From NCBI RefSeq assembly GCF_030055425.1, contig NZ_JASFYE010000003.1, forward strand, positions 1 to 64,000: 64,000 bases of DNA, given 5' to 3'. Of this stretch, positions 42,980 to 49,739 are shown one piece after another. The position numbers and the translations under genes were made by a program. The DNA is from Methanothermobacter sp. Lineage in GTDB: Archaea > Methanobacteriota > Methanobacteria > Methanobacteriales > Methanothermobacteraceae. The notes under the pieces are model-generated. The model saw only the letters and a program-made list of their open reading frames with translations. It was not told the DNA's origin and made no database searches. Positions within the stretch are counted from its first letter, which is position 1, and each line of letters starts with the position of its first letter.

Positions 42980-45781
42980 TTATTTTCCAGCTCCACCCCT
43001 TAGGAACCCGAAGGCCACGAGACCAGCAGCCACAAGGACGCCCACGATACCATAAACATACCATGATGAGTCTCCGCCACTGGAAGATGATGTCGCATTC
43101 TTAACCTCATATGCCTTCTTACCTTCAACCGGGGACTCCTCTGAGACTTCAGATGCAGCACTCTCACCGGCAGGTGAAGTACTGAGGTCAACACCCGGTG
43201 AGTAACCGGCATGGACACCTGTAACACCATGAGAACCTGAGGACACACCACCAGTTGAGCCGCCTGTGGAGCCACCAGGAACACCTCCCTGGTTCCCACT
43301 CTGTGATCCTCCATTGTTCACAGGTATGAGGTCATCCAGAGTTCTTGCAGGTATTGAACGCAGGTATGCGAGCGGGTTACCATTTGCACCACTCTGTATC
43401 ACCCTCAGCTCGTCCTCTGTTATCCACTTTTCAACCTCCTTTGTTAGCACCATGGGAGATGTCATGTAAGCTGGTGTCTGGCCGCTGTAGAGCATTATGA
43501 AGGCGGCAGCCCATTTCTCGAACATGGCATTCCTTGTGGTGCAGTCACTGAGGTCAAACTGTGGCCATCTGAAGCTTATCATCACCGCCTTACCAACCTT
43601 CTTCACGGGGTCCCATAGTATGAGTATTCCCTCTTCACTTCCACCGGGGATCATGGGTGATTCAAGTTCATCCTGGAGGACCCTCTTCGCAAAGTATGTG
43701 CCTGTACCAGGACTCACACCCATGAGGTAGAGGAGGGCGTCGTCCTTGCAGTATATGCTTGTCCCGAACCACTGGTACTGCTGGCCAGCTTCCAGAGGAT
43801 AGTTCTCAAAGGCATACTCTGTTATGAAGAAACCTGGCTGAACACCGGGGCAGACATGGTTGTGGAATAGGAACGTCACGAGCTGGTCGTAGGGGATGTC
43901 GTACTTCCATGCGTTTGCTATGCTCTCTATGCTGAAATATGAACTTCCAAATATCCTTGAATTTGCGGTGTCTCTTGCGGCGTCATTAAGGGCTGCGGGA
44001 CCTATGTCGTTGACCCGTATACCATCCGGTGTGGCCCATGCAGTGAGGGCACCTGTTGTGGGGTTGTAGGTTATGTATACTGAGTCCAGTGTTCTTCCAT
44101 CGGCTCCCTTAAGGACGAATGTGAACCACAGGGGCTTGTAGAATGGGCTGTGGATCGGTAGCAGATTTTTCCTGCTGAGTCTTGAACCAAGGACCTCAAA
44201 GATTCCGTCATAACATGCATCTGTTGGCGTGCCGTTGAGGTAGACGTAACCTGCCGATGTGAGGACGGCAATGTTGAGACTATCTCTTTCAAGGTTCACA
44301 CCCCTCTCAGCCATGAATATGTTCTTTGCCATCTCAGCAGCCCTTTTTCCGATCTCCCTGAGCTCCGTGTAATTCACACCACCAGCTGATGTGGCGGGGG
44401 TTGCCCTGGTTGCATTTGGAAGATTGAGTCTGTTTATGTATTCCATGTCAAGGCCGTGGGTTTCGTTCACCTGGTTATAGTTGACCTCCCTTCCCACAAG
44501 GTAGTAGTACTGATCGGCTGTGAGATTATCGAGCTCTTTGACTATGGTTACAAGTGATGTGGGGTTCTGTGTAACCTTTTTAACAAGCCAGGCATTGAAT
44601 TTGAGTTCTGATACTGCTATTGCACCTGTTTCCCTTTTGTAGAGGTCGATGAGTGCCTGCTGGTCAAACTTCATGACAACAAGGGTACCCGTATTTGTCC
44701 TTGAGTTCCATCTTATGAAGCCAACCATACTCGCATCTGCACCAGTACCTGATGTATCAAAGCCAAGGTATGACCTCTTTCCAGGTGTATTGTCGAGTGC
44801 AACTATGAGTGCGTCGTCATCTGATCCGCCTGGAACACCTATTGTTACATAGTTGGTGATTTCTATTGGGGAACCTGTTGACCAGTCCTGAAGTGGCGGG
44901 TAGTACATGCATAACGTTTTGCTCATGGCATAGCCGCTGATTGTTCCAATACACATGTGACCGTGGAAAGCTGCCTGCTTGAGAAGGTCAGCGGGGGCTC
45001 CAACAGCCCATGCATTGGCAAGGCTTGCGAACGGGAAGGCGTCTTCCCCCAGCCTTGAGGTCAGGTTGTTCCACTGGGTGATGGTCATGTTCTGGGAGAC
45101 GGTTCCAAGATAAACAAGGGTGCTGTTCCTGTAAAAAGCCATAAGAAGGTCTTTGCCCTTTTTTATTATGAAGGCCGTGCAGAGTGGATCCACTGCTGTT
45201 CTCCTGAGGGTGAGTATGTTTGCCTTTCCATAACTGATAACACCCCCTGCCCTGTTGAGTATGCCCTCTATCACGTCTTCGGTCGTCTTATTTCTGTATT
45301 TAACAAGACCTGCGGTTGTTATAACCAGGACTTCACTTCCTGATGTGAAGTTCAGGATTCTGTCGGCCCTCTCGGTCACATCTCTGCCAAGACGGTATGC
45401 TTCTGTTGCATTGAGCAGAAGGTTCAGGCTGGAGTAGTACCTTGTGTCTCTGGGATCCCTCGGGTTTAATGTGAGGTTGAGTCTTCTCTCTGCGGTTATG
45501 TATCCAGGGGCCCTCACCGTGAGTGTAAGATTTGCTGAGCTTATATTTGTGTGCTGGAATATCAGCTTTGTGTAGCCGCTTGATGGGTCGTAGGTTCTCG
45601 TGTAATTCAAACCAACCCCCGAGTCTGTGATCTCAAATGTTGGGTTTATTCTGGCTGTGTCATCACTATACTGGTAACTGACAAGTACGCCAACCTCACA
45701 GGTTGTGTTGTCTGCAGCCGCCACTGATCCTGTCATTAGGACCATCAGTAAGAGCACTGAGACCAGAAATAGCTCACGCAT
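42980..45781 (-). CDS. Secreted, membrane-anchored protein with two FmdE-like domains
   Basis: 933-residue surface protein. Residues 1-23 are a signal peptide (RELFLVSVLLLMVLMTGSVA). Two FmdE-type metal-binding modules are marked by AAFHGHMCIGTISGY near residue 274 and FLFHNHVCPGVQPG near 640, each with the H-x-H-x-C pattern seen in the FmdE family. A Gly/Ser linker, the motif ASEVS ... KAYEV, a Ser-rich stretch, one membrane helix (YGIVGVLVAAGLVAFGFL) and a short tail end the protein. The ATG at 45781 follows GGAGGTGAAAAA; the longer start at 45799 would place this site in the gene. It is not a subunit of formylmethanofuran dehydrogenase; an external metal-binding role is inferred. Confidence 0.82.
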   Translation of the reverse strand: MRELFLVSVLLLMVLMTGSVAAADNTTCEVGVLVSYQYSDDTARINPTFEITDSGVGLNYTRTYDPSSGYTKLIFQHTNISSANLTLTVRAPGYITAERRLNLTLNPRDPRDTRYYSSLNLLLNATEAYRLGRDVTERADRILNFTSGSEVLVITTAGLVKYRNKTTEDVIEGILNRAGGVISYGKANILTLRRTAVDPLCTAFIIKKGKDLLMAFYRNSTLVYLGTVSQNMTITQWNNLTSRLGEDAFPFASLANAWAVGAPADLLKQAAFHGHMCIGTISGYAMSKTLCMYYPPLQDWSTGSPIEITNYVTIGVPGGSDDDALIVALDNTPGKRSYLGFDTSGTGADASMVGFIRWNSRTNTGTLVVMKFDQQALIDLYKRETGAIAVSELKFNAWLVKKVTQNPTSLVTIVKELDNLTADQYYYLVGREVNYNQVNETHGLDMEYINRLNLPNATRATPATSAGGVNYTELREIGKRAAEMAKNIFMAERGVNLERDSLNIAVLTSAGYVYLNGTPTDACYDGIFEVLGSRLSRKNLLPIHSPFYKPLWFTFVLKGADGRTLDSVYITYNPTTGALTAWATPDGIRVNDIGPAALNDAARDTANSRIFGSSYFSIESIANAWKYDIPYDQLVTFLFHNHVCPGVQPGFFITEYAFENYPLEAGQQYQWFGTSIYCKDDALLYLMGVSPGTGTYFAKRVLQDELESPMIPGGSEEGILILWDPVKKVGKAVMISFRWPQFDLSDCTTRNAMFEKWAAAFIMLYSGQTPAYMTSPMVLTKEVEKWITEDELRVIQSGANGNPLAYLRSIPARTLDDLIPVNNGGSQSGNQGGVPGGSTGGSTGGVSSGSHGVTGVHAGYSPGVDLSTSPAGESAASEVSEESPVEGKKAYEVKNATSSSSGGDSSWYVYGIVGVLVAAGLVAFGFLRGGAGK

Positions 45782-45833
45782 TTTTTCACCTCCATCCATT
45801 TTTCACTAAGATAATTTTACTACTATAAAAATT

Positions 45834-46567: not shown

Positions 46568-46834
46568 TTACTGGGGGAGGGCGCTGTTTAGAATGCTTCC
46601 TGTTTGCATGAGGATCAGTGAGAGGAAAAATGACCCTGCTGTGAACAGCAATGTCCACGAATTTAATGGAAAACCTCTAAGAGCTTGCAGCATGACAAGG
46701 ATTGTGTAACAGGATACTGCTGATATTATCATGTTGCTCTTTTCTTCAGCAGGCTTACTGAAGCGTGCGATAACGAGTCCCGTGAAGATGGCGAATGCCA
46801 GGCCCAGAAGGAAACCTGAATTTCTGCTCACCAT
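46568..46834 (-). CDS. Small membrane protein
   Basis: 88 residues with three hydrophobic stretches (GFLLGLAFAIFTGLVIARF; MIISAVSCYTILVMLQAL; WTLLFTAGSFFLSLILM) and a charged loop. No family recognised. Its ATG overlaps the stop of a 19-codon hydrophobic ORF (ATGGTGA), which suggests translational coupling. Of the same general kind as the other small membrane proteins around the C39 peptidase gene; an immunity or accessory role is speculation. Confidence 0.55.
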   Translation of the reverse strand: MVSRNSGFLLGLAFAIFTGLVIARFSKPAEEKSNMIISAVSCYTILVMLQALRGFPLNSWTLLFTAGSFFLSLILMQTGSILNSALPQ

Positions 46835-46887
46835 CCAGGAAAAAGGAGCAATATAACCCCAGCCATGAGTACATATGCACTTCGCAC
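46828..46887 (-). CDS. Candidate 19-residue hydrophobic peptide
   Basis: GTG-started ORF encoding VRSAYVLMAGVILLLFPGW (first residue would be Met). GGTGGTGATTTA directly upstream is a good ribosome site. The peptide is one short membrane-spanning segment. Its stop overlaps the start of the 88-residue membrane protein by 7 bases, and the upstream 46-codon ORF ends inside its ribosome site. The tight overlaps support reality, but it could also be a leader peptide or chance. Confidence 0.35.
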   Translation of the reverse strand: MRSAYVLMAGVILLLFPGW

Positions 46888-46891
46888 TAAA

Positions 46892-47032
46892 TCACCACCT
46901 ATCAATGAATAGGGAGGCCCCATCATGATGCATATCCATAACCCTCGTGACGGTACCAGACCATGTAGCTTTCACTATAATCTTGGAACCCATCGAAAAT
47001 CTACTTTCCCAATATCTCCACAATGAAGCCAC
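46892..47032 (-). CDS. Candidate 46-residue small protein
   Basis: GTG-started ORF with GAGGTAG a few bases upstream. The product is tryptophan- and methionine-rich (SLWRYWESRFSMGS ... MDMHHDGASLFIDRW) and has no membrane segment. Its stop lies in the ribosome site of the following 19-codon ORF. It may be a genuine small gene or the 3' remnant of a decayed one. There is no family match that I can recognise. Confidence 0.3.
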   Translation of the reverse strand: MASLWRYWESRFSMGSKIIVKATWSGTVTRVMDMHHDGASLFIDRW

Positions 47033-47085: not shown

Positions 47086-47570
47086 CTATGTCTTTTTGTT
47101 TTTACTGCTGGTTCTTAGGAGGGTTTTCAGTTGGGGTGTGTTGATCAGGAGGAGTGTTGTCAGTAATATGATGGCAACATACCAGTTTAAGGTGTTTAGC
47201 GTTGGTTGAAGTACCAGTATGATGTAGAGGAGGAGTGCTGTTAGGACCGTCTCAACAAAAATTTTAAGATGCCCTCTATTGTGCTGGTTTGAAGTTCTAT
47301 AACCTAGAGGGAGAGCATGGTAAGCATCAAGAGAAAAACCATGAACTCTGATGCTACATGGACATCAAACACATAGAGGAATGAAATTACCATAAAAACC
47401 GTGAATAGGCCTAAAAACCTCTGAATAAGGAGGAATGGCGGTACTTTAATACCACCACCCACAATGTGCACGATAATAACGCCCTTCTGCAGGTTCAAAG
47501 AGGATATGGGAGCATCCTTTACCAGGATCCCCCTGCAATGTCCCGGCAAACCATGTAATAAACATTCCAC
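47086..47570 (-). pseudogene. Frameshifted small membrane protein gene
   Basis: A GTG at 47570 with GGTGAGGAG upstream opens an 88-codon frame ending in a hydrophobic region (FTVFMVISFLYVFDVHVA, then FMVFLLMLTMLSL) and a stop at 47304. Another frame then continues without a start codon: it reads GYRTSNQHNRGHLKIFVETV, then two hydrophobic segments (LTALLLYIILVLQPT; WYVAIILLTTLLLI), and ends in a basic tail at 47086. The two halves look like one former protein of about 155 residues broken by a single frameshift near 47305. A sequencing slip or programmed shift would look the same. Confidence 0.45.
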
Positions 47571-47636
47571 CAGTTAAACTCCTCACCATGCCATTTTTTA
47601 TTTTTTTGCTTACTGTATTTTAATAATGCTTTTTTC

Positions 47637-48068
47637 TCAATCTTTTGAATCAGTTACTGGCTTGATTATGGTTAACACTGTAAAGGCGATATATGCGGTG
47701 GCGGTTACTGTAAGCGCGACGCATGTGGTGCCCACAACATTTTTGTTGATGGGTGTTTCAGTGAGGATGGCGTTTGTTAAACCTATGAGGTTGAATCCCA
47801 GTGTGAACAGGGCGCTGATCAGCAGTGTCCCGGTAAAGCCATGGTCATAGCATCCACCCGTGTCTATGATAACCTCCTTCAAACCAGTCATGAACAGTAT
47901 AGCAATGACATCTAAAATGAGAATATAGGCTGCTGAATCAACAGGGTCCCCTGAGACAGCATAGAAGAATGGGGCCAGCTCATCCCCCTGCAGCCACCCT
48001 GATAGAACTATAGCTGCAGTTATGGCAAAAACCGCCAGCAGCGTTAATATAAACCTTTTATATTTCAT
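47637..48068 (-). CDS. Small four-helix membrane protein, C39-linked
   Basis: 143 residues with four hydrophobic segments: ILTLLAVFAITAAIVLSG, AAYILILDVIAILFMTGL, FTGTLLISALFTLGFNLIG, and CVALTVTATAYIAFTVLTII. No known family. It begins 38 bases after the stop of the C39-domain gene, with a strong GAGGAGGAAAGC ribosome site, so the two are one operon. Small multi-helix proteins next to peptide precursor genes often act as immunity proteins or export helpers; here that is an inference from position only. A T-rich end signal follows. Confidence 0.7.
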   Translation of the reverse strand: MKYKRFILTLLAVFAITAAIVLSGWLQGDELAPFFYAVSGDPVDSAAYILILDVIAILFMTGLKEVIIDTGGCYDHGFTGTLLISALFTLGFNLIGLTNAILTETPINKNVVGTTCVALTVTATAYIAFTVLTIIKPVTDSKD

Positions 48069-48106
48069 AGCTTTCCTCCTCTTTTAAAAAATAATTGGTT
48101 TGGTGG

Positions 48107-48988
48107 TTAGTATTCTACATAATGTATGCAGTGATCACGCCCCACGTATGCTTTCACCTTCTTGTTTGGCGGATGATAAGCACAATATTTCCAGTATCTT
48201 TGAGGAACATATTTATCTCTGATTGTGATGATTAGATTACCCAGCCCATATAAAGTCACTGGAAGCCACCATAACCGCCCTTTAATCCTCTGCATTTCCT
48301 CGGTGCTTAGGATTTTTCCTGTGTTTATATGGGGCTCTGTTTCTGTTTGGTTTTCTGGGTTTGTCTGGTTTTCTGGTTCTGTTGTGTTTTCAGTTGTTTC
48401 TGTTTGGTTGGTGGTTGTGAGGGTGTAGCCGGTGTAGATTTTCTGGAATTCTTCCAGTGGTATTTCTATGTTTCCCTGTGTGGGGTCTGCGAGTTTAACG
48501 GTGTTGCTGGTGACTTCCCTGATGAGGGTGTAGTGTCCCTCGCCGTCACTCACTGTATAGGCGATCATGTTCCCGCGGAGTTCAGTGATGTTGAGTTTCA
48601 CTCCAATGAGGTTCACGCCTTTGGCCTTTGCTGCTTTGATGAGTCCCTGCATTGTTGTTCCGTCTTCTGTGGTTTCGGCGAGGTCTGCGAGCTCATCTTC
48701 GGTTGTGTTTATTCCGAGGTTCTGGAGTAGTGTGGCGAGTGCTGCCGGCCCGCAGGTGTAGTTCCTGGTCTGCATAACCACTCCTGTGGTGTCGGCTGTG
48801 ATGTTATCGTCTATGGTGAACTCTGCTGGATCCGTGAAGTTCACTTCAGGGTTATCTGCTGTGGATAGTTCCATGGGATCGGTGGGGTTGCTGCTGTTAT
48901 CCTGTGGGGTTTCTGCGGCCGCAGCAGCGTTAAAGGATACTGCGAGTGTGAAGAGGATCAGCAAACCCCAAAGACACAACTTTCTCAT
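48107..48988 (-). CDS. Secreted C39-like peptidase with leader-like motif and C-terminal peptide segment
   Basis: 293 residues. A signal peptide (residues 1-25, WGLLILFTLAVSFNAAAAA) precedes a C39 papain-like domain with all active-site residues visible: Q73 and C79 in VMQTRNYTCGPAALATLL, H152 in GEGHYTLI, and D168 in LADPTQG. A Thr/Asn-rich linker (about 190-220, many N-x-T sites) follows. ILSTEEMQRIKGR (226-238) then matches the double-glycine leader pattern LSxxELxxIxGG except for Arg at the last place. The 55 residues after it have a hydrophobic half (LWWLPVTLYGLG) and a basic half with C269 and C287. Self-cleavage to release that peptide is an inference. Confidence 0.72.
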   Translation of the reverse strand: MRKLCLWGLLILFTLAVSFNAAAAAETPQDNSSNPTDPMELSTADNPEVNFTDPAEFTIDDNITADTTGVVMQTRNYTCGPAALATLLQNLGINTTEDELADLAETTEDGTTMQGLIKAAKAKGVNLIGVKLNITELRGNMIAYTVSDGEGHYTLIREVTSNTVKLADPTQGNIEIPLEEFQKIYTGYTLTTTNQTETTENTTEPENQTNPENQTETEPHINTGKILSTEEMQRIKGRLWWLPVTLYGLGNLIITIRDKYVPQRYWKYCAYHPPNKKVKAYVGRDHCIHYVEY

Positions 48989-49221: not shown

Positions 49222-49611
49222 TCATCCCCTCTTTTTTTGGGTTCTTTTGTGTTTGAGGGGTTCTGGGATGATGTTGATTATTCCGGCTGGGAGAATGGCT
49301 GACCATAGGCTCTCTATTGTGCCTTTGGTTAAACTGATATCCATGAGTGTTGAATAGGTGATACCTGTGATGTTGATGATGGCAAGGGATAGGAGACATG
49401 GTTGCCAGTTCTCCCCCCACCATGCCTTCAGGAGACTTAGGAGGAGCAGATTGAGCAGAATGTAAAACAGGGCTGTGTTCAATCGGTGGTAGATGAGTTG
49501 AAAGAGTCCGCTTGCCGGGATGCCCCCTGAGGATAGGATGAGAAGTAGTGTTGATATGAGAACAATCACCATTCCAGCCATACTTACAAAATAACTCTTC
49601 TCTGACTTCAT
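49222..49611 (-). CDS. Small membrane protein upstream of the C39 operon
   Basis: 129 residues, three to four hydrophobic segments (FVSMAGMVIVLISTLLLILSS, TALFYILLNLLLLSLLKAW, CLLSLAIINITGITYSTLM) and a basic tail ending KHKRTQKKRG. No family recognised. The ATG at 49611 follows GGTGGTTTTA, so it is preferred to the upstream ATGs at 49635, 49626 and 49623. It belongs to the same minus-strand group of small membrane proteins in this accessory stretch. A basic C-terminal tail is common in membrane-protein topology signals but gives no function. Confidence 0.55.
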   Translation of the reverse strand: MKSEKSYFVSMAGMVIVLISTLLLILSSGGIPASGLFQLIYHRLNTALFYILLNLLLLSLLKAWWGENWQPCLLSLAIINITGITYSTLMDISLTKGTIESLWSAILPAGIINIIPEPLKHKRTQKKRG

Positions 49612-49739
49612 TAAAACCACCATCATATTACCCATCGCAATGATACTTGTGAACTAGGTAATTACTTGATAGCTATGAATGGGCTGTAGAATAAATGATT
49701 TTAGGCTTTTATTTAATAAATTCAAAACAAAATAAAATA

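Follow-up and report, generated by a model that had tools for sequence, protein, structure and literature searches.

In polymorphic toxin systems, as surveyed by Zhang et al. 2012 (PMC3482391), a constant exported N-terminal part carries an exchangeable C-terminal toxin whose immunity gene lies directly downstream, and such loci also hold 5′-truncated cassettes, strings of displaced immunity genes and a releasing peptidase within the chain. Archaeal examples are rare, being represented by Rhs proteins of Methanosarcina and by PVC-type systems of haloarchaea (PMC3482391). A second group, the class II double-glycine bacteriocins, consists of small cationic peptides with a membrane-protein partner, and the C39 peptidases known from this group (PCAT1, ComA, LahT) have a Q/C/H/D catalytic set, recognise leader hydrophobics with Gly at position -2 and cleave after GG, GA or GS (PMC10885120). 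The gene described here shares features with both. It lies on the minus strand of a 64,000-nucleotide stretch of Methanothermobacter sp. DNA (contig NZ_JASFYE010000003.1, hereafter the window) and encodes an exported protein in which a C39 domain, a leader-like motif and a short cationic tail follow one another in a single chain (Table 1). We consider it likely that this is an active gene of a methanogen polymorphic toxin-immunity locus, in which the C39 domain serves in cis as a release hinge.

The closest archaeal descriptions each share part of this arrangement. In an archaeal C39/double-glycine island (PMC6393860, Fig. 2E) the C39 protein was likewise suggested to process bacteriocin-like peptides, but there the peptidase and the leader peptides are in separate genes. 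In Methanobacterium single cells a Peptidase C39 orthologue was found to be unusually variable between cells of one population (PMC8115248). A leader in cis with a swappable tail and paired immunity genes is described in neither study. The VARTIG modules of Thermococcales (PMC8416519) also combine a hypervariable archaeal C-terminus with downstream genes in a polymorphic-toxin-like organisation; however, they are built of Ig domains without C39 and, going by the description, are unrelated in sequence. No halocin C8 model matched the window protein in the general Pfam and NCBIfam scans, in which no direct comparison with that halocin was made. Against the literature compared, to which the archaeal toxin survey published in mBio in 2019 (10.1128/mBio.00715-19) does not belong, we regard the system as provisionally novel.

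The original prediction, made from the DNA letters alone, had placed an exported C39 protein on this open reading frame (ORF) of 293 residues and had named Q73, C79, H152 and D168 as its catalytic set, and both readings hold. Peptidase_C39 (PF03412) matches residues 70-196 in Pfam with E 1.2e-32, and an NCBIfam search returned C39 domains of bacteriocin export (NHLM, E 3e-15). An alignment of 18 intact proteins shows no variation in the four catalytic residues or, within the motif, in E230 and G237, so that tetrad and motif are conserved together and none of the 18 has lost either; the hydrophobic N-terminus is also kept in the intact relatives. The domain is followed by an Asn/Thr linker, then LSTEEMQRIKGR, then the tail, which is basic and contains two cysteines as had been read (residues 239-293, net charge +5). 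The G+C content is 41% in the tail, 46% in the immunity candidate and 53% in the C39 part.

The motif had been read as LSxxELxxIxGG at residues 226-238, with Arg at position -1 as an exception to it. It is indeed present there, but the conserved residues are L227, E230 (position -9), M232, I235 and G237, and the Arg is no exception, since Lys or Arg is the norm at -1 in this family (33 of 34 distinct combinations of leader and tail, with Ala in the remaining one). L227, M232 and I235 are nearly invariant in the wider homologue set. When residues 197-293 are shuffled, the pattern [LIVM][ST]xx[ED][LM]xx[IV]xG turns up in only 29 of 200,000 trials, and it has a single match among the 48,191 amino acids of the window's ORFs of at least 60 residues, and for these two reasons we do not take the motif for a chance feature. 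Its hydrophobic residues stand at -12, -7 and -4, the leader positions whose hydrophobics are bound by LahT (PMC10885120), and a Gly stands at -2. In proteins with PMBR and PKD domains that carry the same tail, and in cassettes without C39, the motif is absent from up to 140 residues upstream of that tail (0 of 15). The motif thus appears to carry the signature of a C39 site (-12, -7, -4, -2) and to depend on a C39 domain in the same chain.

Structure comparison points the same way. The top Foldseek matches of the domain were PCAT1 with and without substrate (1e-9) and ComA peptidase domains, and just behind them came a double-glycine protease bound to a leader peptide. AlphaFold gave the motif a predicted local distance difference test (pLDDT) score of 77-85 between disordered flanks, with a strand at residues 236-237, and a control model without the motif lost the strand at residues 111-112. 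These models, which rest on thin alignments, are consistent with docking of the motif on the C39 domain by strand pairing. The chemistry of double-glycine recognition would be in use, yet two defining features of double-glycine systems fail, namely the residue at -1 and the separate precursor with an ABC (ATP-binding cassette) exporter: here peptidase and substrate form one chain with a signal peptide, and no ORF resembling an ABC exporter was noticed beside the toxin gene in the ORF list for 40-56 kb.

An initial search of genome contigs with the single protein as query gave no match. Relatives of the window protein are present in seven further genomes of the genus, and its C39 region was matched in 38 of the 151 genomes of the order and in one further genome of the class (G151), although the remoter of these matches include many C39 proteins of other kinds. 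Across the Methanobacteriales the signal peptide, the C39 tetrad and the motif are kept while the tail is replaced, so that one constant N-terminal part is found on about ten unrelated clusters of cationic tails. All 19 full proteins measured have a tail of positive net charge (+4 to +9). As the original prediction had led us to check, the C-terminal segment varies far more than the protease, with median pairwise identities of 22% for tails and 62% for C39 domains; in genome G006, two proteins have 99% identity in C39 and 21% in the tail. The type-1 tail of the window protein is moreover common to C39 carriers and PMBR/PKD carriers. In tandem with the full genes there are tail copies truncated at the 5′ end that retain part of C39 or the motif only, an arrangement expected of silent cassettes or of displaced copies. 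We also observed 90-residue ORFs that have the leader motif, an NWKYR tail and their own start codon without signal peptide or C39 (L032 9795-10067 and L036 16102-16374); these are either dead cassettes or peptides processed in trans.

The gene downstream changes along with the tail. Counting as partner a small membrane-protein family within 150 bp downstream, we found that type-1 tails of C39 carriers are followed by a fam2 gene in 12/12 cases and NWKYR tails by a fam1 gene in 11/11, and that Trp-rich tails pair with fam4, KWRHK tails with fam6 and hydrophobic tails with fam90 and fam35. After removal of near-identical tails, the concordance of family among tails of the same type was 22/33 versus an expected mean of 4.9, a value reached in none of 20,000 shuffles; the type-0 cluster merges KWRHK and Trp-rich tails by composition (partners fam6 and fam4), which only lowers the concordance. 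That the link merely reflects C39 ancestry was rejected, as near-identical C39 domains occur with different tails and different downstream genes. One fam35 member matches SpoIIM (PF01944), and SpoIIM proteins are present in almost all clusters for circular bacteriocins, where they are tied to export (PMC7132975). The original prediction had suggested a secreted peptide that is a toxin or a signal, and we favour the toxin because every type of tail comes with a downstream membrane protein of its own.

Table 1. Features of the predicted toxin-immunity locus (window coordinates)
Feature	Position	Strand	Basis or remark
Predicted toxin gene, 293 residues: signal peptide, C39, linker, leader-like motif, 55-residue tail	48107..48988	-	
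Signal peptide, residues 1-26 (MRKLCLWGLLILFTLAVSFNAAAAAE)	48911..48988	-	Sequence reading; end without lipobox Cys
C39 peptidase domain, residues 70-196; Q73, C79, H152, D168	48401..48781	-	Pfam PF03412 and Foldseek
Asn/Thr-rich linker, residues 197-225	48314..48400	-	Sequence; pLDDT <50 for residues 196-220
Double-glycine-type recognition motif ILSTEEMQRIKGR, residues 226-238; module boundary at G237	48275..48313	-	
Variable cationic tail, type 1 (WWLP...YVPQRYWKY...), predicted toxin, residues 239-293	48110..48274	-	
Candidate cognate immunity gene (fam2), 143 residues, about 4 transmembrane segments	47637..48068	-	38 bp downstream of toxin gene
682-bp block of tail and immunity candidate; 34 bp instead in syntenic G003	47597..48278	.	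Right edge is the motif Gly codon
Fossil of displaced NWKYR-type tail, frame-shifted (...KKWHGEEFNWWNVYY... / ...LFEPAEGRYYRAHCGWWY)	47449..47620	-	tblastn with G003 tail, E 5e-21
Relic of fam1 immunity-type gene (NWKYR type), frame-shifted	47089..47423	-	tblastn 90-93% identity, E 5e-50
Remnant, last 18 residues of KWRHK-type tail	46926..46979	-	tblastn 56% over 18 residues, E 6e-5
Relic of fam6 immunity-type gene (KWRHK type), frame-shifted near start	46568..46887	-	tblastn 94%, E 2e-53
Orphan immunity-like gene (fam10), 3 transmembrane segments	49222..49635	-	Elsewhere directly 3′ of FLQFIWSGIQAYMTVYG-type tail

The original prediction was borne out for the protein itself but overlooked its surroundings, that is, the neighbouring immunity candidate, the displaced relics, the cassette arrays and the logic of polymorphic toxins that joins them. 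The locus adjoins a tRNA-Arg gene and is syntenic in sister genomes. Homology to G003 stops at the codon of the motif Gly, G237 (AAAGG); the toxin gene that G003 has at this locus is interrupted by an in-frame stop, which may leave that copy inactive. In G001 a segment of 1,020 bp bearing a YHTSY tail and a fam4 gene takes the place of 48101-48611; the sequence to either side of it is about 92% identical, and the fam2 gene persists there as an orphan. Displaced cassettes and strings of immunity-type genes belong to the system as well. In the window, relics of two displaced pairs lie downstream of the active pair (NWKYR with fam1, then KWRHK with fam6), and the orphan fam10 gene lies on its other side; this order would fit insertions that came one after another, as has been proposed for the displacement of pairs in polymorphic toxin loci (PMC3482391). 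An ORF of 88 residues at 47304-47570 was rejected as an immunity gene, since tblastn resolved it into the frame-shifted dead tail and the start of the broken fam1 gene. The viral contigs searched contained no relative of the window protein and a plasmid search returned only ordinary C39 proteins of about 33% identity or less; nothing in these searches therefore points to a mobile element as the vehicle. PADLOC matches to AbiEi and MTase_I were weak and unrelated. The product of a gene adjoining the toxin locus (42980-45799) is an exported protein of 939 residues that shows two matches of FmdE type and ends in a transmembrane segment at the C-terminus, and a relative of it is split and lies near PMBR/PKD arrays in G005.

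Related proteins occur outside the order. In the G151 protein the layout is the same, the tail (GWLNRLWRKIKRALLRWW...) resembles an amphipathic helix and the downstream gene resembles fam35. Metagenome-assembled genomes of Candidatus Uhrbacteria and Microgenomates (L169-L173) encode exported C39 proteins with a ITDDELSGMTGK-like motif that ends in GK, followed by long variable tails. Two of these patescibacterial (CPR) tails, from Uhrbacteria relatives, resemble DUF4258 (E 0.002-0.01), which we take to be toxin-like, and each is followed by a DUF1871-like gene (E 0.005-0.02). Such relatives are rare (3/286 genomes of their class).

Judged from its genomic features, the system would qualify as a polymorphic toxin system, and our favoured explanation is as follows. 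The signal peptide would export the window protein, and the C39 domain would recognise LSxEEMxxIxG[KR] in its own chain and cut at or next to G237-R238, which would free the cationic tail of 55 residues. With its hydrophobic start and basic, aromatic end, the tail would most likely act on the membrane of related cells, while the 143-residue membrane protein would protect the producer. Recombination at the motif could import a new tail with its immunity gene and shift the old pair downstream, where it would decay or persist as orphan immunity. This explanation draws on the architecture, the conserved C39 domain and motif, the exchange of tails, their pairing with downstream genes, the module edge at the motif Gly and the displaced relics, all of which can be seen in the genomes. 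The system also departs from the polymorphic toxins surveyed earlier, in which the toxins are large enzymes and the C39-like Tox-PLC39 is itself a toxin, not a releasing peptidase (PMC3482391); here the predicted toxins are cationic peptides of 30-90 residues in a methanogen.

Several points weigh against this explanation. Cleavage in cis, release of the tail, membrane action or toxicity, and immunity are steps that we infer. Double-glycine leaders have Gly, Ala or Ser at -1, where this family has Lys or Arg. Confidence in the model of the type-1 tail is low (about 43 pLDDT in AlphaFold), and the DUF4258 and DUF1871 matches of the patescibacterial loci fall below the Pfam cut-offs. Finally, the catalytic cysteine of an extracellular C39 domain has to be kept reduced, and a methanogen could plausibly provide such conditions.

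The C39 domain could instead be a PeiR-like enzyme that cuts pseudomurein, with the attached tail as a toxin passing through the breach and the motif as only a hinge. PeiR, whose fold is of the C39 type and which also belongs to a methanogen context, is a pseudomurein endoisopeptidase of the C39 family (PMC6189367) and was found by Foldseek at E 2e-6. It is nevertheless a weaker match than the exporter peptidases, both in phmmer (ComA 7e-9 versus PeiR 0.006) and in Foldseek (PCAT1 1e-9), and Pfam detects in the window protein none of the wall-binding PMBR repeats that PeiR, with its lytic role, combines with C39. This reading, which we judge unlikely, also leaves aside that the motif has leader hydrophobics and is gone where the carrier of the tail is without C39. 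The patescibacterial relatives of the same layout are, moreover, bacteria, from which pseudomurein is not known. The Lys/Arg at -1 in 33/34 combinations, where known C39 enzymes cut after GG, GA or GS, would suit another protease that frees the tail, perhaps one of trypsin type that cuts at this conserved residue, while C39 does something else. Yet positions -12, -8/-9, -7, -4 and -2 form a C39 signature tied to C39 in the same chain, and the fixed Gly at -2 is not needed by a trypsin-like enzyme, and we think this quite improbable.

The pairing of tails with membrane proteins would equally suit a ligand and its receptor, and C39 peptidases do mature pheromones such as ComC (PMC10885120), so that the tail could be a secreted signal or a self-recognition tag. 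There would be little reason, however, for displaced receptors to persist as strings of orphans. The match of a fam35 member to SpoIIM and the toxin-like DUF4258 tails of the patescibacterial relatives also argue for a toxin, and we give the signal or tag very little chance. Returning to the explanation by a self-released toxin, we lean towards a wider view in which self-processing polymorphic toxins occur sporadically in methanogens and Patescibacteria, the C39 domain having moved from an ABC exporter and accepted Lys/Arg at -1, with the cut site as the recombination joint.

Other carriers and other C39 proteins were observed beside this family. Exported PMBR and PKD proteins of about 840 residues end in a type-1-like tail (L031-L034 and L036, in G001, G005 and G007), and their genes are followed by arrays of 5′-truncated tail copies, each with a small gene of 2-3 transmembrane segments, with TPR genes between them; these arrays seem to form a second polymorphic system that uses another carrier. 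Remnants of it are present in the genome of the window (L046 9769-15178). A GKG junction is also seen in exported C39 proteins of Methanobacteriaceae (L115-L123, L158 and L159; groups g10 and g11), but several of these have Ala or Ser at the position of the catalytic Gln and their tails are more uniform, possibly reflecting a different or degenerate use. Giant proteins of 1601 and 2389 residues combine PMBR, beta-helix and C39 (L112 4258-9063 and L157 5464-12633) and have long tails after their leader-like motifs (MTTSEMKIAKGQ and LLSEKVMKEIKG). All searched genomes of the genus also contain a stand-alone C39 protein that is about 148 residues long and has no signal peptide (L049 5846-6292; in the genome of the window, G000:C2:67902-68282).

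Antagonism among methanogens is almost uncharacterised, and this family offers a testable set of predicted peptide toxins from thermophiles for which immunity partners can be named. Methanogen inhibitors are of practical interest. The family would also represent a branch of C39 peptidases for which a new specificity at -1 is predicted. Tail swapping of this kind offers an explanation for the hypervariable C39 gene in the Methanobacterium population (PMC8115248). Because the recognition site of the protease coincides with the joint at which modules are swapped, every new tail would automatically be releasable.
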